IMG/VR virus record: IMGVR_UViG_3300035688_000038
Span: 1 to 32,993 of that record
Length of the DNA stretch: 32,993 nucleotides
Reading direction: 5' to 3' (one strand)
From: a virus
In this document: positions 1,766 to 29,915 of the stretch, one piece after another
Layout of the letters: the number at the start of each line of letters is the position of its first letter
How positions within the stretch are numbered: position 1 is the first letter of the stretch
Translations under genes and position numbers: made by a program
The notes under the pieces: generated by a model
What the model was told of the DNA's origin: nothing
What the model saw: the letters and a program-made list of their open reading frames with translations, nothing else
The model's database searches: none

Positions 1766-2848
1766 TTATATCTTCTTATCTTTCAATTCTTTAGGCAAGA
1801 GACTTTCAAAATATGTCCCTAATTTTGCAACAGCATCAGCCTTTTGTGCCTCGCCTGGGTGAGTATATTTCAGCGTGGTTTTCAAATCTGAATGACCGAG
1901 TAACTCTTTTGCTGTTCCCAAATCTGTTACAGATGTAACAAGCGTGGATGCGGTATGACGGAGCTGGTGAAAGCAGAATCCACCAATGCCAGATAATTTA
2001 CGAATTCTGGCAATGGTGGACACGAAAGCGTGAGTATCTCGGCGAGGCATCGGGAAAATGAAGTCATCTTTTGACTTTGAATCCTCAATAATTTTCATCG
2101 CAATATAGTTTAAAGGTATAACCTTAAATGCAGGATGCGACACAAGTTGTCGCCTTTTGTGTTTGGTTTGTGAAATAGGAAAGAAGATTTGACGGTCTCT
2201 AATGTATGATTCTTTTAAGTTAATAATCTCTCCAAACCTCATTCCAGTATTTAAAGCCAAGAGAATGAGGTTATAAATAATTTTCTGGTAGGGAGAGTGA
2301 GGATCGCCCTGAATTTTCCAGGCCGCGGAAAGAATGACCTTTAAATCATCTTTGTATAAACCGATCCTGGTCGGATACTCTGCGTAGGGTATATAACAGG
2401 AAACGGGATTATCAGTCAAATACTTATCTTCAATCGCAAGGTTGAAGAAATGGCGAAGCAATTCAAAATAACGATTGACGGTTGAGGCTTTCCGGCCTAA
2501 AGAAAAAAGATGCTTTTCTAAGTTTTGAATATCCCTTTTTGAGATTTCATTCAATTCGACCGTGCCAAAAAAATTTGAGATTATCTTCAACCTTTCAATG
2601 TCTCTATCCAGCGAACCTTTTCCTTGTTTTTGATTAACATATTTGTCAATATATTGCTCGAATGAAATACTATTAAAAGTTTTATACTCAATCCCAAAAT
2701 GCCTGGCAATAATTTCTTCTTCTACCTGTTTTAACCTTTGGCTTAATAAAGCTTCCTGCCCTTTCCTTAAATTCAAACTTCTATAATAAAGTTTCTTTTG
2801 TATCATTTTTTTGAAATAGTAATGATTCCCCCTTTTGTATAAAGTCAT
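1766..2848 (-). CDS. int: Tyrosine recombinase (phage integrase)
   Basis: The 360-residue protein has the three-part layout of phage integrases: an N-terminal arm-binding region beginning MTLYKRGNHYYFKK, a SAM-like core-binding domain (about 60-155) and a C-terminal catalytic domain. The catalytic set is complete: Arg204 (TGMRFGE), Lys229 (TKHKRRQ), His294 and Arg297 (HQLRH), His319 (LLGHSD) and the nucleophile Tyr328 (LKYTH). It would join attP and attB for lysogeny and, with an excisionase, reverse this. The candidate attP lies immediately downstream and the CI-like repressor upstream. A near-consensus promoter at 2937-2965 gives a leader of about 80 bases without a visible SD before the ATG. 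Confidence 0.95.
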   Translation of the reverse strand: MTLYKRGNHYYFKKMIQKKLYYRSLNLRKGQEALLSQRLKQVEEEIIARHFGIEYKTFNSISFEQYIDKYVNQKQGKGSLDRDIERLKIISNFFGTVELNEISKRDIQNLEKHLFSLGRKASTVNRYFELLRHFFNLAIEDKYLTDNPVSCYIPYAEYPTRIGLYKDDLKVILSAAWKIQGDPHSPYQKIIYNLILLALNTGMRFGEIINLKESYIRDRQIFFPISQTKHKRRQLVSHPAFKVIPLNYIAMKIIEDSKSKDDFIFPMPRRDTHAFVSTIARIRKLSGIGGFCFHQLRHTASTLVTSVTDLGTAKELLGHSDLKTTLKYTHPGEAQKADAVAKLGTYFESLLPKELKDKKI

Positions 2849-2982: not shown

Positions 2983-3231
2983 TCAAACTCTTTTTTCTTG
3001 TGGCTCTTCACAGGGCTCAATCGCAAGCTGAATAAACTCAAGTGGAGATACATCAAAAGCTTTGGCAATGTTTTTAATTGTGTCGAATCTGGGTGAGTCA
3101 ACATGATTCCGTTCGAGCCGACTGATGTAGCTTCGCTCGTACTGAGTTTTTCTGTAGATGTCGCCTTGGGTCATTTTTTTGCGCTTTCTAAGAATCTTCA
3201 TGGCTTTTCCGATGTTCAATTTATAGGTCAT
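2983..3231 (-). CDS. CI-like transcriptional repressor, XRE-family HTH
   Basis: The 82-residue product is essentially one Cro/CI (XRE) helix-turn-helix domain: MKILRKRKKMTQGDIYRKT, then YERSYISRLERN, with the long scaffold helix IKNIAKAFDVSPLEF. It lacks a C-terminal LexA-like peptidase or dimerisation domain, so it must oligomerise through the HTH domain or its acidic tail. It would not be self-cleaved by RecA in the lambda manner. The start has a good site (GGAGGG). It is divergent from a Cro-like gene across a 169-bp control region with three 18-bp operators, which is the classic lysogeny-switch layout. Its own promoter carries one of these operators. Confidence 0.85.
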   Translation of the reverse strand: MTYKLNIGKAMKILRKRKKMTQGDIYRKTQYERSYISRLERNHVDSPRFDTIKNIAKAFDVSPLEFIQLAIEPCEEPQEKRV

Positions 3232-3293
3232 TTTTCCCTCCTGTAATTAAAGTTTGGCTCTCACTTTCCCCTTAAAGATTCAAACCATAGATA

Positions 3294-3321
3294 AGGATAG
3301 CATACTTAACGAATTTGTCAA
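3294..3321 (-). promoter_or_regulatory. Repressor promoter (leftward, extended -10)
   Basis: On the minus strand TTGACA (3321-3316) is followed after 16 bases by TATCCT (3299-3294), preceded by TGC, an extended -10 element. It would start a message near 3287 with a leader of about 55 bases before the repressor ATG. The -35 box is part of operator O1, so the repressor should regulate its own gene. Confidence 0.7.
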
Positions 3322-3322
3322 G
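3305..3322. promoter_or_regulatory. Operator O1
   Basis: CTTAAC-GAATTT-GTCAAG matches the inverted-repeat consensus CTTAAC-N6-GTTAAG with one mismatch. It contains most of the -35 box of the leftward repressor promoter. Confidence 0.7.
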
Positions 3323-3346
3323 TAGAAAAATAAATATAAAATAGGT

Positions 3347-3364
3347 CTTGACATAAGCGTTAAC
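3347..3364. promoter_or_regulatory. Operator O2
   Basis: CTTGAC-ATAAGC-GTTAAC matches the consensus CTTAAC-N6-GTTAAG with one mismatch in each arm. Its left arm supplies TTGAC of the -35 box of the rightward early promoter. Its centre is 42 bp from that of O1. Confidence 0.65.
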
Positions 3365-3376
3365 ACTTGTTAAACT
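3348..3376 (+). promoter_or_regulatory. Early rightward promoter (PR-like)
   Basis: TTGACA (3348-3353), 17 bases, TAAACT (3371-3376). Transcription would start near 3383, about 18 bases before the Cro-like gene's ATG, and read the whole early operon. O2 overlaps the -35 box and O3 covers the start point, so repressor binding would block it. Confidence 0.75.
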
Positions 3377-3394
3377 CTTAACTGTCAGGTTAAG
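3377..3394. promoter_or_regulatory. Operator O3
   Basis: CTTAAC-TGTCAG-GTTAAG is a perfect 6-6-6 inverted repeat and defines the consensus. It begins directly after the -10 box and covers the predicted start point of the early transcript. Its centre is 30 bp from that of O2. Confidence 0.75.
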
Positions 3395-3400
3395 ATAAAA

Positions 3401-3598
3401 ATGACATCAAGAGAAGTTATCGAATCCAAGCTAAAAGAAATTGGCAAATCCAAGACTTGGCTTGCTGGCGAGATGGGCATGAGCATCGCCCAGCTATCCC
3501 ACCTAATAAACAAAACCCCAGACCCACGAATAAAGACCGCACTGAAAATCTCTGTGGCGTTAAAGACTAAAGTCGAGGAGATTTGGAGAAAATGCTAA
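3401..3598 (+). CDS. Cro-like XRE-family HTH protein
   Basis: The 65-residue product is a compact HTH: SKLKEIGKSKTWLAGEMGMS followed by AQLSHLINKTPDPRIKTALK and the closing helix ALKISVALKTKVEEIW. It is the first gene of the rightward early transcript, directly downstream of O3, and divergent from the repressor. This is the position and size of Cro-type proteins, which bind the same operators and switch off the repressor promoter. The leader is only about 18 bases and has a weak SD (CAGG 11 bases upstream), implying low or repressor-sensitive translation. Role is inferred from fold and place. Confidence 0.8.
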   Translation: MTSREVIESKLKEIGKSKTWLAGEMGMSIAQLSHLINKTPDPRIKTALKISVALKTKVEEIWRKC

Positions 3599-3819
3599 TA
3601 AGTGCACCGACGTTATTTCCAGAAATAATGGATTCAGAACTCATCTGTCGTTTTCTTAACATCAGCCTTCCCACATTAAATAAATATATCAAAGTTTACG
3701 CACTTCCAAAAATCCAGGTAGAGAAAAACGGAAAACTTCTATTCAAAAAATCTCAAGTCGAGAAATGGCTTGATAGATTCCAGAATAAACCGTTCAGAAA
3801 GGTGAGGAACAAATGTTAG
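3592..3819 (+). CDS. Excisionase-like (MerR-type HTH) DNA-binding protein
   Basis: The 75-residue product has a winged-helix pattern of the MerR/excisionase class: DSELICRFLNISLPTLNKYI as the HTH, then LPKIQVEKNGKLLFKKSQVEKWL as wing and closing helix. Proteins of this kind direct integrase to excision or act as early regulators. ATG at 3592 is preferred over an in-frame TTG at 3583. It overlaps the stop of the Cro-like gene by seven bases and has GAGGAG 11 bases and GGAG 3 bases upstream. Being second in the early transcript fits an excisionase that is made only when the repressor fails. A plain transcriptional regulator is the alternative. Confidence 0.7.
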   Translation: MLISAPTLFPEIMDSELICRFLNISLPTLNKYIKVYALPKIQVEKNGKLLFKKSQVEKWLDRFQNKPFRKVRNKC

Positions 3820-5038: not shown

Positions 5039-6044
5039 ATTTGAAATGGCTTATTTAAAAAGTGGCATTTATGGAATAACTGGCACCGGAAAGACATATA
5101 CGGGATGGCTCATCGCCATGGGTCTTTGGCATTATATCAAAGATAAAACCAAAAAGAAACCTGGTCCGATAGCCTTTGCAGATACGGAAACCGGGTCTGA
5201 TTTTATTTATGATAGGTTTAAAAAGGAGGCCGATGAGATCGGGTTGGTCAGAACAAAAACAAGGGCATTTAAAGATTTAATTGATATCGTGAAAGAGGCA
5301 GCAAAAGAATGCTCTATATTACAAGTTGATTCAATAACTCATTATTGGAATGAGGTTTTGAAGGCATATAAAGCAAAAAATAAAATAAATGTAATTAGTC
5401 CAAAGCATTGGATTCCTCTAAAAGAAACTTGGAGGGAATATTCAGATTTATATATAGACAGTCAACTGCATGTAATAATGTGCGGAAGGTCAGCTGACCT
5501 TTGGGAGGAAATACCAGACGAAGAAGGAATATTAGAACTTCATAAAAAGGGAACAAGAATGAAGGCAGAGGGAGAAATGGGATATGAAGCAAACTTGCTT
5601 ATGGAGATGACGCTTGAGCAGGTTACGGTAGCCGGAATACCAAAGTATGTTCATCGCGGCTGGATAAATAAAGATAGATTCGACGTAATGACATTTAAGC
5701 ATTTTGATGAGCCAAAATTTGAAAATTTCTTGCCTCACATATCAAGATTAAACATAGGTGGAAAACACAGCGCAATAGACTTGTCTCGAAACAGCGAACA
5801 GATGTTTGAAAAGAAAGAAAGCAGATTTGATTATATGCGACAAAAGGAAATCCTGATTGAAAAAGTCCAAACCACCATTTGGCTTATCGAGGCTGGCCGA
5901 GATGACGAATCTAAAAAAGCCAGACTTAAACTACTTGAAAAAACATTTAAAACAATTTCTTTTGAAGAACTCAAGGAAATGGACAACGAAAGACTATCTG
6001 CTGGCCTAAAGAAATTGGAAGAATTAAGGAAGGTGAAAAAGTGA
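5016..6044 (+). CDS. Sak4-like RecA-fold ATPase (single-strand annealing recombinase)
   Basis: The 342-residue protein has a Walker A motif GITGTGKT at 20-27, an ADTETGSDF segment at 55-63 and a Walker B strand ending in Asp105 (ILQVDSITHYW). It also has a RecA-core-like continuation (HVIMCGRSADLW, MGYEANLLMEM). This pattern fits the AAA/RecA-type ATPases of phages that include Sak4, a truncated Rad51-like recombinase. Sak4 proteins promote strand annealing with a partner SSB, and an SSB-like gene follows two genes later. The C-terminal 80 residues are helical and charged. The start has GAAGAGGAAG upstream; the stop overlaps the next GTG as GTGA. Confidence 0.75.
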   Translation: MKILKPIEFEMAYLKSGIYGITGTGKTYTGWLIAMGLWHYIKDKTKKKPGPIAFADTETGSDFIYDRFKKEADEIGLVRTKTRAFKDLIDIVKEAAKECSILQVDSITHYWNEVLKAYKAKNKINVISPKHWIPLKETWREYSDLYIDSQLHVIMCGRSADLWEEIPDEEGILELHKKGTRMKAEGEMGYEANLLMEMTLEQVTVAGIPKYVHRGWINKDRFDVMTFKHFDEPKFENFLPHISRLNIGGKHSAIDLSRNSEQMFEKKESRFDYMRQKEILIEKVQTTIWLIEAGRDDESKKARLKLLEKTFKTISFEELKEMDNERLSAGLKKLEELRKVKK

Positions 6045-6352
6045 AACTCAAAGAACTTGAAAAAATCAAAATCCTGGGAAAGACTTATGATATTATTTGG
6101 ACAAGCCAAGCGGAGACCGGAGAAATACTTCAAGGAAAAATTGGGGTTTCTTTTCCAAGTTTAAATAAAATCTATATAGATAATACGATTCCAGAATCAC
6201 AACAAATAGATGCGTTTTTTCACGAGTTCTTAGAATCTGTGGATGAAGAATTAGAACTAAAATTAGAACACGGAAACATTTCAAGATTGGCCTGTGCCAT
6301 CACCGCACTTTTGCTTGATAATTCAGGCAATTTAATTTTTGAAAAGGAGTAA
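6041..6352 (+). CDS. Phage metallopeptidase-like protein with altered HEXXH
   Basis: The 103-residue product follows a common phage pattern: a beta strand with GKIGVSFPSLNKIYID, then a helix AFFHEFLESVDEEL and a final LACAITALLLDN. In relatives the helix reads HEILHAI or similar. Here His61 and Glu62 are kept, but the second zinc ligand is Glu65 instead of His (HEFLE). It may bind metal through another residue or have lost activity. It starts with GTG overlapping the ATPase stop and precedes the SSB-like gene by a few bases, so it lies inside the recombination module. Substrate unknown. Confidence 0.6.
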   Translation: MKLKELEKIKILGKTYDIIWTSQAETGEILQGKIGVSFPSLNKIYIDNTIPESQQIDAFFHEFLESVDEELELKLEHGNISRLACAITALLLDNSGNLIFEKE

Positions 6353-9705: not shown

Positions 9706-10308
9706 ATGAATTATTGTATTGACTGTGGAAAAGAGATTTGTAGAAAGGCGAAGCACTGTCATTCGTGTGCGAATAGAAAACGGAAATTTTCAGAAGAGAC
9801 AAAAATAAAAATGAGCAAGGCACACAAAGGAATAATTTTTTCAGAAGAACATAGAAAAAAATTAAGTGAAGCCGGTAAAAAGAGATGTGTTTCTGAAGAA
9901 ACAAAAAAGAAAATAAGCATGGCGCATAAAGGCAAACATCTTTCGGAAGAAACCAAAAGAAAACTGAGTGCGATGATGAGGGGTCGAATCGGAGAAAATG
10001 CTTTAAACTGGAAAGGCGGAAGAAGATTAAGCTACGCGGGCTATGTTTTAATTTATTCTCCCAATCATCCGCATTCTGGTGGCGGAAAATGTGTTTGTGA
10101 ACATCGTCTTATTATGGAGAAATATATTGGTAGATATTTGTATCCATGGGAAACAGTCCACCATATCAATGGAATTAAAGACGATAACCGAATAAAAAAT
10201 TTAAAACTGCTTCCTGGGAATGAACACAATACAAAAATTCAAGAAATATATAAAGAGAATTTGTTTCTCAAGAAGCAATTAACAAGATTTTTAGAAATTA
10301 AGGTCTAA
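9706..10308 (+). CDS. HNH homing endonuclease with NUMOD3 repeats
   Basis: The 200-residue product starts with a C4 zinc ribbon (Cys4, Cys7, Cys18, Cys21). It continues with four NUMOD3-type DNA-binding repeats of the form SEETKxKxSxAHKGK (about 29-95), and ends in an HNH domain: CEHRLIMEKYIGRYL, then HHINGIKDDNRIKNL and a closing EHN. NUMOD3 modules guide homing endonucleases to their targets. The HNH core is closely related to that at 1201-1647. The NUMOD3 repeats resemble those of the Vsr-type enzyme at 27703-28392. It is freestanding, right after the phosphoesterase gene, with only a weak SD. Confidence 0.88.
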   Translation: MNYCIDCGKEICRKAKHCHSCANRKRKFSEETKIKMSKAHKGIIFSEEHRKKLSEAGKKRCVSEETKKKISMAHKGKHLSEETKRKLSAMMRGRIGENALNWKGGRRLSYAGYVLIYSPNHPHSGGGKCVCEHRLIMEKYIGRYLYPWETVHHINGIKDDNRIKNLKLLPGNEHNTKIQEIYKENLFLKKQLTRFLEIKV

Positions 10309-16424: not shown

Positions 16425-18016
16425 TACATAAACTCTCGATTTTCCCATCTTTTTTCAAGCTGTGCCTTAATTGCGAAACCTACATCTTTATTGGCGAACT
16501 TGAGGTTACTGTTGATGAGATATTTTGCGTTATCTACATAATCGTCATTTATCTTTTTAGGTCTATTCTTAACACCCTTCTCTTCTCTTGCCCTGGATGA
16601 TGCCCAAGATTCCCACATATAATGTTCTACCTGGTCAATAAACCCTACACAACTTCTAAAGACATGAACCGTAGATTCCGGTTCTTCGACTAACATATCC
16701 GTGAACCTGTTAAAGAATGTCATAAAGTCTCTGTTCGCCTCTTTGAAATGCAAACCGTAATCTTTAAATAACCCCTGAATTGTTATCGGGCTGGCCTGAA
16801 GTTTGTTGTGTTCTTGTTTTGCATAGGTTGGGTCAATCAGTCTTTCCCAGACCTTTTCTTTACTTTCATTTTCAACACATAGAATTTCGTATGCTGTTTC
16901 CTGAACAGTGAGCGACCTGTCCTGTCCCGTAAATTCCATTTCCCTGTAAAACCACATATGTCCCCTTGGGTCTATTGCCACCCAGAGTGCATAAATGGGC
17001 TTTTGAGGATGCGGGTCAACGGCCATCGCTCGCATCCACCCTTTTGGAATCTCGAATGGTTCACAGGTATGCTTTTCATAACTGAATTTCGGAAACACCA
17101 ATCCAAGTTCACGAGTATATTTTCCACCATAAAGTCTCTCGGCATCTACTCCCCTGCCCTTCTTTATCAGTTCTTCTTCTTCCATTTTTATAGTATTTTT
17201 ATCGAGATGTGGATTATCATAACTTGTAAAATTGAAAGCCTTTTTGCGCTGGCTCTTTTTTACAGCGAACAGGATAGATTCATACATCTCAATAAATTCT
17301 GGCGTAATAACATTCCTCTTTGGGTCTGGAACCGTTCCTATAAAAAGTGCATCACTCTTAAAATCTAACAACATTGGTGAAACCGTATCAAACCAAACTG
17401 TCCAGGGAATTGCCGGGAATTCGTCAAAGACAACAAAATTAAGACCTGCACCGAGCATCGGTAATTCATCAACCGTTCCAAGAAGTTCTATCCAAGAACC
17501 GTTCCTAAGTCTTATCCAATGCTGATCCTCTCTTTTTTGCTCGACAAGAATCTCTGGCAAATAGGGCGCAAGCAATCTTCCTGTTTTTAAATCTTTTCTT
17601 GGATAAAGCATAAGCCTCCAGGCAACTCGATAAGCCTGTTTTTCCGTATGGGCAATATACCAGATTCTTGAAGCTGGTATCTTCATTGCCCTATCTATAA
17701 TTTCATTCACGGCCAAGGTCGTTTTTCCAAATCTCCTTCCGGTGATTGCCATGACAATTCGACTGGTATTCCAAGGTTTCAGGGCATCATGAATTTGAAT
17801 TTGTTTATCGAATGGCGTATATAATCCATTTTTATTGTCTGTAACCTTCTTCTTGAATTCGGGTGTTACTCTATGTCCCTTCATAACCTTTTTAATGGTT
17901 TTCCTTTCCTCTTTTATCTTTTCCCATCTGGTCGGGTCTGGTTTAACCCAGAGTTTGGCAGCCTTCTGCCGATCCTTTTCTTTTTGGGTCTCAAAATATA
18001 AATCCCAGTTAGTCAT
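16424..18016 (-). CDS. terL: Terminase large subunit (packaging ATPase and nuclease)
   Basis: Counting from ATG 18016 (530 residues), the ATPase domain has Walker A GRRFGKTT at 93-100 and Walker B FVVFDEF with Asp198-Glu199. The nuclease domain keeps the acidic set Asp334 (AVDPHP), Asp395 (LIDPTY) and Asp491/Asp495 (NDDYVDNAKY). The enzyme cuts concatemeric DNA and pumps it into the prohead. The ATG is preferred to an in-frame TTG at 18034; it overlaps the preceding ejection gene by eight bases. No small subunit is recognised in the window. Confidence 0.93.
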   Translation of the reverse strand: MTNWDLYFETQKEKDRQKAAKLWVKPDPTRWEKIKEERKTIKKVMKGHRVTPEFKKKVTDNKNGLYTPFDKQIQIHDALKPWNTSRIVMAITGRRFGKTTLAVNEIIDRAMKIPASRIWYIAHTEKQAYRVAWRLMLYPRKDLKTGRLLAPYLPEILVEQKREDQHWIRLRNGSWIELLGTVDELPMLGAGLNFVVFDEFPAIPWTVWFDTVSPMLLDFKSDALFIGTVPDPKRNVITPEFIEMYESILFAVKKSQRKKAFNFTSYDNPHLDKNTIKMEEEELIKKGRGVDAERLYGGKYTRELGLVFPKFSYEKHTCEPFEIPKGWMRAMAVDPHPQKPIYALWVAIDPRGHMWFYREMEFTGQDRSLTVQETAYEILCVENESKEKVWERLIDPTYAKQEHNKLQASPITIQGLFKDYGLHFKEANRDFMTFFNRFTDMLVEEPESTVHVFRSCVGFIDQVEHYMWESWASSRAREEKGVKNRPKKINDDYVDNAKYLINSNLKFANKDVGFAIKAQLEKRWENREFM

Positions 18017-21000
18017 TTTTCCGCAATTCTTCAAGATGGTTTTTTAAAATCTTGGGCAAGAATACAATTCTGGCCGCCGTAGAACTATTTAATAAAATAC
18101 TTTGGATTCTATCTTTTTTCTCATCGTCCCCCATCTTTTTATATTTATCAGAATTCATTATGCTATTTAAAAGATTAAATTCCTTTGGCCCTCGGAATCT
18201 TAAAAATTCTTCGTATTCTTCTCCTGTCAAATTAATCTTCTTTTTTCCAACCGAAAATGTTCTGGCTGGCATTGATGGATACAGGCCAAGTCTTTTCAAT
18301 TCTGTGTCAACTTCATTTAATTTTTCTTCTGACCGATAAATAGGCGAAACCATCTTTTCAACAACTCCACCAGTCCGCTCGACTGGCCTTCCCCACCTAT
18401 CTACTCTTATCGGTAATGTCTGGGCCACACCAGGGATTCGAGCTTTTAAAGTATCAACGAGTCCTTTTGCATCTCTAAAATATGGGTCAACCGCTCGCGC
18501 TGTCTGTGCCACGCCAGTTGGAATTGCAGAACCAATGAGTCTTTCTGCCCATTTGCCACCATATTTTTCGGGGTCGGCAATTGCATTTGTGGCCGCAGAG
18601 ATTCCAGTTAAGAATGTCTTGTTAGTTACATTCTTATAAAAAGCACTCCAAAGTTTTCCAGCAATATCTTCTCTGTCTTTTTCACTTATATCTTTCCAGA
18701 TTTCAGCGGCATCGGCAGAAATTCCGAAGACCGTTGCAAATGGTTCAATTCTGGCATAGGAAATATATTTCTTTCCAATTTTGAAAGAATAGGGTTGCCA
18801 ACCTTCCCGATACATGGCCTCTCTTTGTGATTTGTCTGTTGGACCACCTCCGGTAACCTTACCCTTTAAAGCCATCAAAAATACTGCCATTGAAGTCAAT
18901 CCACCAATCGCTACTTTAGAATATTCCATAGAAATTTCACCCTTTGGAATTTGGCCTTTTATTTGTTTGTAAATAATTCTTGGCAAGTTAATTGGTGTTC
19001 TCTCTAACCCATACTTTATTAAATTGATAGGAGTTCTTACAAATGGAACAATGTATCTTACAAAAGGAATTTCTTGTCGTATTCTTTGCACAGCCTTTCC
19101 CGCCTTTCCAAGTTCTTGTTGAAATGTCCTATAAAGCATTTCTCCTTTTGCATGATTCATCATGGGAAGTGTTGGCTCTTCTATTAATTCAGCTATTTTA
19201 TTAATTCTTTCTTGTCCTCTAAGTCCCCTTGCGGTAGCCTCTCGGTATGCCAATCCATGAGTATCAGATTCATAAATAATTGCCTTAAAGAATTCATCTG
19301 CGGCTTGTAGTGCCCTGCCTGGAATCCTGACTATTTTTCCTCCCTTTCCCTTTATTGCCGTAGGCGTGCGAACCTCAAGTTTAGTTGCCCCTTCCATTGT
19401 CATTTCATTGTTCCATGCAAACAAGGCTCGCCTCACCCCTTCTGGAATTCCTTGAATTATTCCAAAGATTTGATGGGCAGATTCACCAAAATAATGTTCT
19501 GGTTCTATTGTTTTGCCGCGCACTTTTCCCCAAATTCTTTTGGGGGCTTCAATTGTTGCCGCACCCAGGGTTTCTATTGGCTTCCCAATTAAGGTAAAAA
19601 AGTTTCCATCAATGTTTGCTGCCTGTGTAGGAATGTTTAAAAGTAAACCATTAACCCAAACCTCAAAAATCTTATCTACAAGTTTAGGATTAGAAATATC
19701 TCTCATAAATTTATTGACGGCAACTGGGTCAGACATATCGAGCATTGCCATCTTTTCGGCAATCTCGGCATTCTTTTCTCTTCCTCCCAACTGCTTTAAA
19801 ATTTTATCAAGAGCCTTAAATCTCAATTGTCCAGGTTCGGTTGTAATTCTGAATTGCTGTAATGCCCTTCCAGCCTCGGCGGTAATTCCGCTAACAACTT
19901 TCTGGATTCTTGCATGCCTTTCCAGTCTTATTCTAAAATTGGCAAGGGCTTCATCCGAACCCGTCTTTATAAATTCTTCGTGATATTTCAAGGTATCTTT
20001 AGCCGAACTCATCAGGATTTGTCTGGCCGCCAATGCTTCTTCGGCATTCATGGCCTTTCCCTTTTTAGTTCCCATTAACTTTTCTACTGTCATTCCAAGT
20101 TCTTCGGCTAATTTCTGGGTCTGGGTATTGGTAATAACACCACGCCGTTGCTCGTTAATTAAAATCTTGTTCTTATCAGCAGTATCAACAAGAAGTTTCT
20201 TGATTCCATAATCATCAAATATTCGATTGAGATTTATATTAATTGCCTTTTCTGGCAACTCCATTCCATAGGCAAGTCCACCAGCCTCAATCTTTCCTTG
20301 TGGTTTTTCAACTGTCGGCACTTCTTTAGGTATGCCGACCTTTTCTATCGGTTGCACTTTTCTTAATTTAGTCACTTCTTCTGGTGTAATGACTTGCCCT
20401 CCGAGGCGTTCTCTATGTCGAATTTCTAATCCTGGAAGTGCTTGTGCAACTTCCATATCTGTGATACCTTCTTTCTTGAATAATTCCCATGCCTCTTTTC
20501 GTGGAAGTGTCGTGACTACTTTTTTGATGGCTTCTGGAGTCCACTCGGTTACAACTTTCCCAACCGTTGCATCAATCCATTCTCCAATGTCTTTTGCTGC
20601 GGCTTCTGGTTTCAGTTCACCCGCTAAAACCTTATTTGTAGTCTCCCTCAGCTTTTCCCCATCCATAAAATCATTTTTAAGAAATGCGTTAATTTCTGGT
20701 TCGGTCTTTCCAGTCCGCTTTAAAATATCAGCCTCAGCATTTATAACTTTTTCTTGCTCAGCTAAAATCTTATTCTGCTTTTCAATATATTCTTTTGGAT
20801 AACCCTTTTTTATAATTGGAGTTTTTGGTTCTTCCATAAATCCACGAATGGGATATGTGCCAAGTTTTTCTGCCTGTTCTAACATTGCTTCTTGTTCGGT
20901 TTTGGTTGGTGGCATTCTTTTTGTTGGCTCGTATGCCTGTTCTGGTTTTGGCAAAACTCTTTTCGTCTTGGCTTTTTTCATCGTGGCGACAAATTCTGCT

Positions 21001-21644
21001 TTTTGTTCTATCGGAATTTCTTTTGATGCCTCAACTATCTTTGCGGTTTCTTCAACCGATATTGGCTTGCCAGATTTTATTGCATTAGTAATGTAATTTT
21101 TTAATAGTGGGCTGAGTAGGATTGCGGTATCTAAGGCAAGCTTAATTTCTCGTTGCGTCCCTTCCTCTGGGGCCATTTTCTGGGCTATAAAATCAGTTGC
21201 CTTCGCCAAAATCTCGAAGGGAAGTGCAGTTATGCCAGCATATTCCTTGCCAGCTTCTGTTGTGGGCTGATACTGAATAACCTCACCAACCTTGCCTGCG
21301 ATCTCCTCTGCTTTCTCTGGGCCAACAAAGGGTCGCAACCCAATTCGCGTGGCAACATTTACAGGAAAGGCGGCAAGTCCAGTTGCGCCAGCTCCCAATG
21401 CCTCGGCTGTTCCCGTAATTTCTTCAAGCTTTTTCTTGGGCCACTCGATATTTTTCTTCCATTGACTTCTTAAAATTTCTTTCGTTGTTTCCCAAGCAAT
21501 TTGTGGAATGGTAGTCTTGGCTGGTTGTAATTCTGGATGCCTTGGCAATCCAACCCCCATAGAATTTAAGATGGATTCTTCTGTCGGCACCTGGGGCAAT
21601 CCAATACCCAGTGATTTTAAAATATCTTCTTCTGTTTGACTCAT
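18009..21644 (-). CDS. Very large internal virion (ejection) protein, 1211 aa
   Basis: The protein begins with a tandem 17-residue repeat (residues 4-20 and 21-37: TEEDILKSLGIGLPQVP, TEESILNSMGVGLPRHP). A long helical, Lys/Glu-rich middle follows, then a region with LQQFRITTEPGQL and VWVNGLLLNIPTQAANIDGN, a hydrophobic stretch near residue 910 (AIGGLTSMAVFLMAL), and WQPYSFKIGKKYISYARIEP. That last segment is characteristic of large virion-borne proteins of podoviruses. These are carried in the head and ejected to form a conduit or act in the cell. It lies between two other structural genes and terminase. No polymerase or protease motif is recognised. Confidence 0.7.
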   Translation of the reverse strand: MSQTEEDILKSLGIGLPQVPTEESILNSMGVGLPRHPELQPAKTTIPQIAWETTKEILRSQWKKNIEWPKKKLEEITGTAEALGAGATGLAAFPVNVATRIGLRPFVGPEKAEEIAGKVGEVIQYQPTTEAGKEYAGITALPFEILAKATDFIAQKMAPEEGTQREIKLALDTAILLSPLLKNYITNAIKSGKPISVEETAKIVEASKEIPIEQKAEFVATMKKAKTKRVLPKPEQAYEPTKRMPPTKTEQEAMLEQAEKLGTYPIRGFMEEPKTPIIKKGYPKEYIEKQNKILAEQEKVINAEADILKRTGKTEPEINAFLKNDFMDGEKLRETTNKVLAGELKPEAAAKDIGEWIDATVGKVVTEWTPEAIKKVVTTLPRKEAWELFKKEGITDMEVAQALPGLEIRHRERLGGQVITPEEVTKLRKVQPIEKVGIPKEVPTVEKPQGKIEAGGLAYGMELPEKAININLNRIFDDYGIKKLLVDTADKNKILINEQRRGVITNTQTQKLAEELGMTVEKLMGTKKGKAMNAEEALAARQILMSSAKDTLKYHEEFIKTGSDEALANFRIRLERHARIQKVVSGITAEAGRALQQFRITTEPGQLRFKALDKILKQLGGREKNAEIAEKMAMLDMSDPVAVNKFMRDISNPKLVDKIFEVWVNGLLLNIPTQAANIDGNFFTLIGKPIETLGAATIEAPKRIWGKVRGKTIEPEHYFGESAHQIFGIIQGIPEGVRRALFAWNNEMTMEGATKLEVRTPTAIKGKGGKIVRIPGRALQAADEFFKAIIYESDTHGLAYREATARGLRGQERINKIAELIEEPTLPMMNHAKGEMLYRTFQQELGKAGKAVQRIRQEIPFVRYIVPFVRTPINLIKYGLERTPINLPRIIYKQIKGQIPKGEISMEYSKVAIGGLTSMAVFLMALKGKVTGGGPTDKSQREAMYREGWQPYSFKIGKKYISYARIEPFATVFGISADAAEIWKDISEKDREDIAGKLWSAFYKNVTNKTFLTGISAATNAIADPEKYGGKWAERLIGSAIPTGVAQTARAVDPYFRDAKGLVDTLKARIPGVAQTLPIRVDRWGRPVERTGGVVEKMVSPIYRSEEKLNEVDTELKRLGLYPSMPARTFSVGKKKINLTGEEYEEFLRFRGPKEFNLLNSIMNSDKYKKMGDDEKKDRIQSILLNSSTAARIVFLPKILKNHLEELRKND

Positions 21645-27702: not shown

Positions 27703-28392
27703 TTAAGTTCTATTAAAATCAATGATTTTTTTAGAAAGCATATCCATATTCTTCAATTCGTTTTGCCAAATAATAAGTGTTTCAAACCCAAACTCTTTAA
27801 AAAAGCCCTTTCTTTCTTCTCCGCTCTCGTTCTGATGCCAATAATTTCCGAAGAATTCAATAATCTTTTTCTTGCCATTAATATTTATAAAATCAGGACA
27901 TTTTCCCGAGAGGATAAACTGCCCGCCTCCAACGTATTTATATTCATCTGGAAGAAGTCGTTGAAGAACTTCATTCAATTTCTTTTCACATTTATTTGGT
28001 TTTGTATTGGTTGCCTTAAACATTTTTCTTATTGCTTCATCAGAATGACGTTTCCCCCAAAAGGGATTTTTTTCTCCGCACTTTTTTCCTTTTTGGGCTT
28101 CACTCATTTTTCTTTTAGATTCTTCAGAATGATGTTTTCCTAACATCGGTGCGGGTCCTCTTTTCCTCGCCTCGCTCATTTTTTTTCGAGTTTCTTCAGA
28201 GGGATGCCTTCCGATGCTTGCCCTGAGTAACTTTTGTCTGTGTTCCTCAGACATATTATGCTTACCCATATTTGATTCGCTTATTTTTTTCTTTGTTTCT
28301 TCCGAATGGTGTTTTCCCCAGCGAGGATGGTCTTTGCCAACATTGTAATGCTTTCCTTTATTCCAATGAACCCTTTCTTTGTTCCAGCTCAC
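27703..28392 (-). CDS. Vsr-type homing endonuclease with NUMOD3 repeats (I-Bth0305I-like)
   Basis: The product (229 residues) starts at GTG 28392, overlapping the tail gene's TGA as GTGA. About five NUMOD3-type repeats (HHSEETKKKISES, HPSEETRKKMSEAR, HHSEESKRKMSEAQKGK, and HSDEAIRKMFKATN) are followed by a Vsr-like nuclease: NKCEKKLNEVL, GKCPDFININGKKKIIEFFG, YWHQNE and GFETLIIWQNEL. Asp in CPDF and the His in YWH are the expected catalytic residues. Such enzymes are mobile genetic elements that home into phage genomes. It lies between two tail genes and looks inserted into the late operon. It shares NUMOD3 modules with the HNH at 9706. Confidence 0.85.
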   Translation of the reverse strand: MSWNKERVHWNKGKHYNVGKDHPRWGKHHSEETKKKISESNMGKHNMSEEHRQKLLRASIGRHPSEETRKKMSEARKRGPAPMLGKHHSEESKRKMSEAQKGKKCGEKNPFWGKRHSDEAIRKMFKATNTKPNKCEKKLNEVLQRLLPDEYKYVGGGQFILSGKCPDFININGKKKIIEFFGNYWHQNESGEERKGFFKEFGFETLIIWQNELKNMDMLSKKIIDFNRT

Positions 28393-29915
28393 TTTCGTCC
28401 TCTCATCCAGCCAAAAAATACACAACCATGAATTTTAAATCCGTAGGGATTTGTTATGTCTTTTATTTTTACGAGAAATTCTTTTCCGAAACAATCAAGG
28501 GTTACGGGATATCTCCTAATCCCTGCATTGCCAGTTCCGTCAATTGTGTAATTAAAAGAAAAGTTCTGATTCAGTTCATTTGCCAAATCCAACCCAAAAG
28601 TTATTGTTTCGTCTGTCATTTTCTCAATCAATAAATCGGCTGCCAACACTCTCTTGTTTCTGGTTTTGTCTTTCCAGAAAGTTGGAGGAAACAAAATATT
28701 CGATTCGTAATTTGAAACACCATCCGTGTAGGCAACGATTTTCTGCTCTTTAATGTATCCGTCTTTGTTCCCAAAGATAGGAATAAAACTCAATCCATAA
28801 GCCTTGCGCTCATCTGGGCTCAGCGTGCTAAGGTCTTTCTCAAACTCGCCGTAGCAAGAATAATTTTCTGCAACCAATTCTTTCTTTGATATCAATTCAT
28901 TTCTCGAAACATCATAAATAATTTGAACATTGTTGAATGAACTTCCAGATTTCGGATAACAAAGAAAAAGTTGATTCAGATGAGGAAAAAGAAATGCGGT
29001 TGCTCGATAGTAATAAATCGGATCCATCTCGTCCATAATTAGGTTATTGAACTTTCCATCAGAAATCGAGGTTGGCACTCCGTCTCGAACCATTTGCATC
29101 AATCCTTCCTGAGATATAAAATAATGAACATCTTTATTTCCGCAGAGTGTTCCTGGGCAGAGAAGTCCTTGACGGTCGGTAACAAGTTGTGGTAGATATC
29201 CCATTGTGTCATTGTAATAAACTCGATAAATTCCTCTCGGAAAGTAAACGACAATCGTATCCTGCATAGATTTAATGCTGACAATCTTTCCTTCGACTGC
29301 GATATCAATTTTATTGATGCTTCTGAAATTCGTAATATTGCCAGGGTCGGAAATCCAAAGGCGTTGATAATTCTCCGTTCCGTCCTCTATCGTTCTTGCC
29401 AAGACTAAAAATGTATCCCAGTCTTCAATAAACCTTGCCTTGAGAACAGTAACATCTTGGGCCGTCAGGGCAAGTTCATCAAAAGTTCCGTCCCAGTAAT
29501 AAAGAATTCCAGAATCAGAAAGTGTAAAAATGAATTTATCATCGGCATTGGCATGGGTTAAAATACTGTCGTTTCCACCATAGGCAATCGTTCCAATCTC
29601 ATCCCACTCATCATTATTTATCAGGACATAAAGTCGCTTGGGCGTAACGGCCATAAGGAATTTGTCATCAGTTGAATATTTTTCATAGATAGGCAAACCA
29701 AGAATCGCTCGGTAATCAGCAATTCCTTGCTGAGTCGTGATATTATTCAGGTAATCTGTTCCTCGAATTTTCTCGACTAACCCATTTCTAATAATGATAT
29801 TATTCCCATCTTCAAGCCAAATAGGGCTTCCTTCTTCGGGAAGCAGGGTTCGACCAATTTCTGTGTTGAGGCCAGCGAAGCCTAAAATCTCACCGAGGGT
29901 TTGAAACTCTGACAC
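28389..29915 (-). CDS. Tail protein, P22 gp10-like (DNA-stabilisation/tail hub)
   Basis: The 508-residue protein (GTG 29915, GAGAGG nine bases upstream) begins with ILGFAGLNTEIGRTLLPEEG and NNIIIRNGLVEKIRGTDYLN, the opening pattern of podovirus tail-hub proteins such as P22 gp10. Their body is a long chain of short beta strands; this one has IIAYGGNDSILTHANADDKF, LYYWDGTFDELAL, IYRVYYNDTMGYLPQLV and more, consistent with a beta-propeller-like fold. It closes the head after packaging and forms the platform for the spike. An in-frame ATG at 30041 lies inside the upstream gene and was not used. The C-terminus overlaps the homing endonuclease start. Confidence 0.65.
   Translation of the reverse strand: MSEFQTLGEILGFAGLNTEIGRTLLPEEGSPIWLEDGNNIIIRNGLVEKIRGTDYLNNITTQQGIADYRAILGLPIYEKYSTDDKFLMAVTPKRLYVLINNDEWDEIGTIAYGGNDSILTHANADDKFIFTLSDSGILYYWDGTFDELALTAQDVTVLKARFIEDWDTFLVLARTIEDGTENYQRLWISDPGNITNFRSINKIDIAVEGKIVSIKSMQDTIVVYFPRGIYRVYYNDTMGYLPQLVTDRQGLLCPGTLCGNKDVHYFISQEGLMQMVRDGVPTSISDGKFNNLIMDEMDPIYYYRATAFLFPHLNQLFLCYPKSGSSFNNVQIIYDVSRNELISKKELVAENYSCYGEFEKDLSTLSPDERKAYGLSFIPIFGNKDGYIKEQKIVAYTDGVSNYESNILFPPTFWKDKTRNKRVLAADLLIEKMTDETITFGLDLANELNQNFSFNYTIDGTGNAGIRRYPVTLDCFGKEFLVKIKDITNPYGFKIHGCVFFGWMRGRK

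Follow-up and report, generated by a model that had tools for sequence, protein, structure and literature searches.

A probable compact immunity switch with both -35 boxes inside operator sites in a previously uncharacterised temperate phage

The known systems closest to the locus reported here come from temperate phages and, in one case, from a restriction-modification system. In phage lambda, three related inverted-repeat operators (OR) lie between the divergent repressor and cro genes with spacings of 23 and 24 bp, the -35 box of PR shares three bases with OR2 in the record, a second operator cluster (OL) is present, and the repressor cI is a self-cleaving protein of 237 aa. In Staphylococcus phage phi11, too, the divergent repressor genes flank three homologous operators, which are believed to overlap the promoters in part; these operators are 15 bp long, CI has 239 aa and the two regulators split the sites (PMC3991615). 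Lysogenic repressors that are not self-cleaved are known from the Gifsy phages, with repressors of 136 aa and LexA-controlled antirepressors, and from N15, where the non-proteolytic CB binds at three operators located between cB and cro, and OL operators are present as well (PMC3121763, PMC10432266, PMC4488713). Outside phage immunity, the restriction controller C.Esp1396I is an 82-aa HTH dimer with three operators, one of which (the OR site) supplies part of a -35 box (PMC3758141).

The window, meaning the whole stretch of DNA analysed here, is a virus record of 32,993 bases with a GC content of 0.38 and belongs to a temperate phage not characterised before. It codes for an SU10-like portal, an AAA protein and a terminase. 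Near its left end lies a locus that resembles a switch of the lambda type made of different sequences, and every part of it has precedent. What is particular is its tightness: both -35 boxes lie wholly inside operator sites, the repressor has only 82 aa, and the sites are spaced 42 and 30 bp from centre to centre. The features are as follows.

1766-2848, minus strand: tyrosine integrase (Pfam, 1.4e-19), adjoining the repressor gene
2983-3231, minus strand: 82-aa Xre/HTH_3 repressor (Pfam HTH_3, E 3.4e-11), with a GGAGGG ribosome site upstream and without a peptidase domain
3294-3321, minus strand: leftward (repressor) promoter TTGACA-16-TATCCT from a consensus scan, extended -10, -35 box at 3316-3321
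3305-3322, no strand: O1, CTTAACGAATTTGTCAAG, one mismatch to CTTAAC-N6-GTTAAG, leftward -35 box inside
3347-3364, no strand: O2, CTTGACATAAGCGTTAAC, two mismatches to CTTAAC-N6-GTTAAG, rightward -35 box inside
3348-3376, plus strand: rightward (cro/early) promoter TTGACA-17-TAAACT from a consensus scan, extended -10, -35 box at 3348-3353
3360-3373, no strand: possible fourth site TTAACA-CT-TGTTAA, a perfect 14-bp palindrome in the spacer of the rightward promoter
3377-3394, no strand: O3, CTTAACTGTCAGGTTAAG, no mismatches, predicted rightward start point (about 3383) inside
3401-3598, plus strand: 65-aa Cro-like HTH protein (Pfam HTH_3, E 3.3e-6)
3592-3819, plus strand: excisionase-like HTH_17 protein (E 8.2e-6, PHROG 668/66), the first gene after cro

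An earlier note, made from the letters alone, had proposed a three-site lysogeny operator here, and its main observations were borne out. The coordinates of the three CTTAAC-N6-GTTAAG repeats, their mismatch counts and their centre distances were all reproduced; the consensus scan found both divergent near-consensus promoters with the hexamers and spacers it had given, and agreed that the two -35 boxes are operator half-sites, leftward in O1 and rightward in O2. Its placing of O3 over the rightward start point also stands, in that the start predicted from standard promoter spacing falls within the site, whose first base directly follows the rightward -10 box. The note had described an extended -10 for the leftward promoter; this is so, although the rightward -10 is preceded by TG as well. 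The switch takes up about 115 bp between the leftward start and the first codon of cro at 3401.

The ORFs of 82 and 65 aa, which the note had taken as repressor and Cro-like protein, both belong to the HTH_3 family, with scores of 43.4 bits (repressor) and 27.5 bits (Cro) against a Pfam cut-off of 23. The AlphaFold model of the repressor (pLDDT 88) consists of five helices and two short terminal strands, and it resembles DdrO, C.Esp1396I and SinR in the PDB; the fold of the Cro-like protein resembles SinR, the N-terminal domain of lambda cI, P22 c2 and 434 Cro. The divergent pair of HTH regulator genes beside an integrase gene fits a temperate-phage switch of the CI/Cro type, and at the sequence level repeated operators overlap both divergent promoters. 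Lambda operators share no sequence similarity with O1-O3, the lambda-type spacing is not found, and the window holds no second cluster of the OL type; the different geometry that the note had remarked on is real yet unremarkable, as phage operators differ widely in size and spacing. Gifsy and N15 differ in repressor sequence and operators, and no antirepressor gene like that of Gifsy was identified in the window. C.Esp1396I, though among the closest to the repressor by sequence and fold, controls restriction-modification through GAC-type half-sites and has no role in lysogeny.

HTH proteins such as DdrO, C.Esp1396I and SinR bind DNA as dimers. The locus is very probably a temperate phage's immunity switch, in which a dimer of the 82-aa repressor would bind O1, O2 and O3 and control both promoters. 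Repressor at O3 and O2 would block the rightward promoter and keep the prophage silent, while at O1 it would cover the -35 box of its own promoter and so limit its own amount. Since the half-site CTTRAC contains TTGAC, operators and -35 boxes share bases, and repressor and RNA polymerase would therefore exclude each other directly. Judged by the match to the half-site word, O3 and O1 are predicted to be bound more strongly than O2. The Cro-like protein is presumed to bind some of the three sites and to shut the repressor promoter in lytic growth, and this is a guess because the recognition helices of the two proteins differ in this phage (RSYISRLE in the repressor, IAQLSHLIN in Cro).

That same difference in helices leaves room for a division of the sites, where O1-O3 would mainly belong to the Cro-like protein and the repressor would use other or overlapping sequence, such as the palindrome at 3360-3373. 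This palindrome overlaps O2 and has the TTAAC word in common with it; taken singly, it is near chance level. Precedents for divided or limited binding exist, as phi11 CI binds only O1 and O2 and Cro only O3 (PMC3991615), and the Cro of PY54 binds one site (PMC4488713). On the other hand, with O3 placed on the lytic start and O1 on the repressor promoter, one protein at all three sites makes a complete switch, and in G019, one of three related phages described below, the two recognition helices are nearly alike, consistent with shared sites in that phage. We consider ownership by Cro unlikely, and take the repressor as the protein that would occupy all three sites.

The arrangement of the sites was compared with chance expectation. 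Single CTTAAC-N6-GTTAAG sites with at most three mismatches show no excess in the 33-kb window (15 found, 14.9 expected); O1, O2 and O3 are, however, three of only four sites with at most two mismatches, and no additional site with at most one mismatch occurs anywhere in the window. As a cluster score we took the total mismatches of the best three sites of any symmetric 6-N6-6 word in the region 3232-3400. The real intergenic region (169 bp) has a total of 3, which none of 400 dinucleotide shuffles equalled. In a stricter version, both -35 and both -10 hexamers were held fixed, the remainder was shuffled and any shared spacing from 0 to 12 was allowed; here the best shuffle scored 4 against the real 3 (0 of 300 reached it), and the cluster is hence not an echo of the two TTGACA boxes. 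The word CTTRAC itself occurs five times in the 169 bp where shuffles give 0.26 on average, and 0 of 1000 shuffles reached five. The O1-O2-O3 cluster is beyond chance. A likeness due to no more than a pair of TTGACA boxes within AT-rich intergenic DNA and one chance palindrome would fit the facts that the -35 boxes themselves supply two of the six half-sites and that weak sites, taken one by one, are as frequent as chance predicts. It was already disfavoured by both sets of shuffles and is very improbable.

O3 could instead function in the RNA, as a hairpin within the leader of cro, being a perfect inverted repeat just 5' of the cro start codon. The predicted start at about 3383 leaves its left arm (3377-3382) untranscribed, the site has no Rfam match and is not terminator-like, and its word recurs at O1 and O2, all of which makes a hairpin function highly doubtful. 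Equally hard to credit is a phage-borne toxin-antitoxin or restriction-control cassette, which the 82-aa C.Esp1396I among the best PDB sequence matches and weak NCBIfam matches to HipB, PezA and HigA antitoxins (all far under cut-off) might suggest, since neither a toxin nor a methylase or endonuclease could be recognised beside the pair, integrase and an excisionase-like gene flank it, and its place and order repeat in three related phages. A lysogeny operator with the -35 boxes in its half-sites and a repressor that lacks a cleavage domain remains the best reading, as the note had proposed, and is supported by conservation of the module in those three phages.

As regards induction, the note had argued from the bare HTH protein that the switch must open by a route other than RecA-stimulated self-cleavage. 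Only HTH-type Pfam matches were obtained for the 82-aa repressor, which lacks a LexA/S24 self-cleavage domain, and no S24 domain was found in the repressors of G017, G018 and G019; with none in four repressors, self-cleavage is an unlikely route, and this part of the argument holds, while the alternative it leads to is a class already known. Phage repressors that are not self-cleaved are inactivated by an antirepressor or a protease in trans (PMC3121763, PMC10432266). In the present phage, a trans-acting factor or a stop in repressor synthesis may serve, and no gene for repressor inactivation could be named in the window. The features of an ImmR/DdrO-type system, where a separate HExxH protease of the M78/IrrE type cuts the repressor, are not seen, as the repressor model has no C-terminal domain to be cut and, in a scan that covered part of the ORFs, neither of two HExxH-like proteins matches Pfam M78. 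These two small proteins, at 490-948 (HEIAH) and 6041-6352 (FFHEFLE), belong to no recognised family; the latter matches PHROG 1233, of unknown function. The former was considered as an ImmA-like antirepressor protease, which Pfam, NCBIfam and PDB searches did not support. The window scan found no LexA-type box of the form CTGT-N8-ACAG; a single GAAC-N4-GTTC box was discarded, being inside a coding region and at chance level.

Searches with single proteins recovered very little. In scans of the viral collection the repressor query gave one weak relative and the Cro query none, and terminase, portal and integrase as single queries gave no matches. A relative was first found through the AAA protein, and its terminase, aligned with that of the window, formed a two-sequence query that recovered a group of phages with terminases 49-57% and portals 48-54% identical. 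The portal-terminase block is conserved in this group (G015-G020 with G001). No close relative was found among annotated phage records; G001, the closest by AAA protein, ends before its immunity region, and more distant AAA-protein relatives gave no usable comparison. A Sorangium MAG from the alignment of the AAA protein against genomes was dropped as a host lead, the match being 39% and too distant. GC content, where measured, ranges from about 0.38 (window and G017 immunity region) to about 0.52 (G018 and G019 immunity regions), a spread that suggests different hosts. A pattern scan of viral contigs for the operator pair returned eight contigs with coding repeats or hairpins and no divergent regulator pair recognised beside them, which we regard as coincidence. 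Elsewhere in the window, a 1211-aa protein (18009-21644, minus strand) matches PHROG 6651 (E 6.6e-45), a family of internal virion proteins, which suggests a podovirus-like ejection protein. Three lookalikes of HNH/NUMOD-type homing endonucleases, judged by eye from translations, lie at 1201-1647, 9706-10308 and 27703-28425 (minus strand), and G001 and G020 carry similar proteins.

Three relatives, G017, G018 and G019, keep the order of the module: integrase (42-48% identical and adjoining the repressor), small repressor, divergent TTGACA promoters and an excisionase-like gene nearby. Their repressors are 104-123 aa long and 22-33% identical to that of the window. G017 has a 104-aa repressor (33% identical) and no cro; its rightward promoter leads directly into the excisionase-like HTH_17 gene (L100 1397-1816). 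The 123-aa repressor of G018 lies below the Pfam reporting limit and its Cro is 46% identical, and G019 combines a 104-aa repressor with a Cro 45% identical and nearly identical recognition helices (PYISKL and PYISRL). Perfect TTGACA -35 boxes stand in the divergent promoters of all three at the same place as in the window, with weaker rightward -10 boxes in G018 and G019, two promoters that the consensus scan left unlisted. In G019 the -10 box at 1670-1675 and the cro ATG at 1682 (L102 1647-1682) predict a leaderless transcript.

CTTAAC-N6-GTTAAG sites are absent from all three relatives, so that the repeats are lost where the promoters are kept, a pattern that the note had named as refuting its reading. 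Taken literally this is what we found; we read it as a difference in immunity specificity, because the repressors are only 22-33% identical and G018 and G019 have an operator word of their own. This word, ATTGNCA, occurs eight times in the intergenic region of G018 (0.17 expected) and four times in that of G019 (0.19 expected), counts reached by 0 of 1000 shuffles in each case, and its copies include the rightward -35 box in both. In G018 the leftward -35 box sits inside a perfect 7-2-7 palindrome, ATTGTCA-AG-TGACAAT, and direct repeats ATTGACA-N9-ATTGGCA, 16 bp apart, cross the rightward promoter of G018 (L101 1656-1678) and G019 (L102 1646-1668), an arrangement unlike the three inverted repeats of the window. 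No clear operator word was seen in the intergenic region of G017. Sequence comparison thus indicates a conserved layout with an operator word that drifts along with the repressor, as expected from heteroimmune phages; the principle of sharing half-site and -35 box recurs in at least two relatives (G018 and G019), whereas sequence and arrangement do not.

For this phage group, the locus offers what is probably a complete compact lysogeny switch of about 115 bp, whose repressor has 82 aa and whose Cro has 65 aa. The operator words differ by lineage, CTTRAC in the window phage versus ATTGNCA in G018 and G019, and it is conceivable, though less likely than not, that operator words throughout the group are bound to the -35 consensus, with each lineage's repressor recognising TTGAC- or TTGNCA-like half-sites and specificity drifting around fixed -35 boxes. 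If true, each operator variant must also stay a working promoter, and fewer immunity types would be possible. The most useful product is the comparative set of three relatives, two of them with another operator word, which lets one ask how repressor specificity and promoter sequence co-evolve on shared bases.
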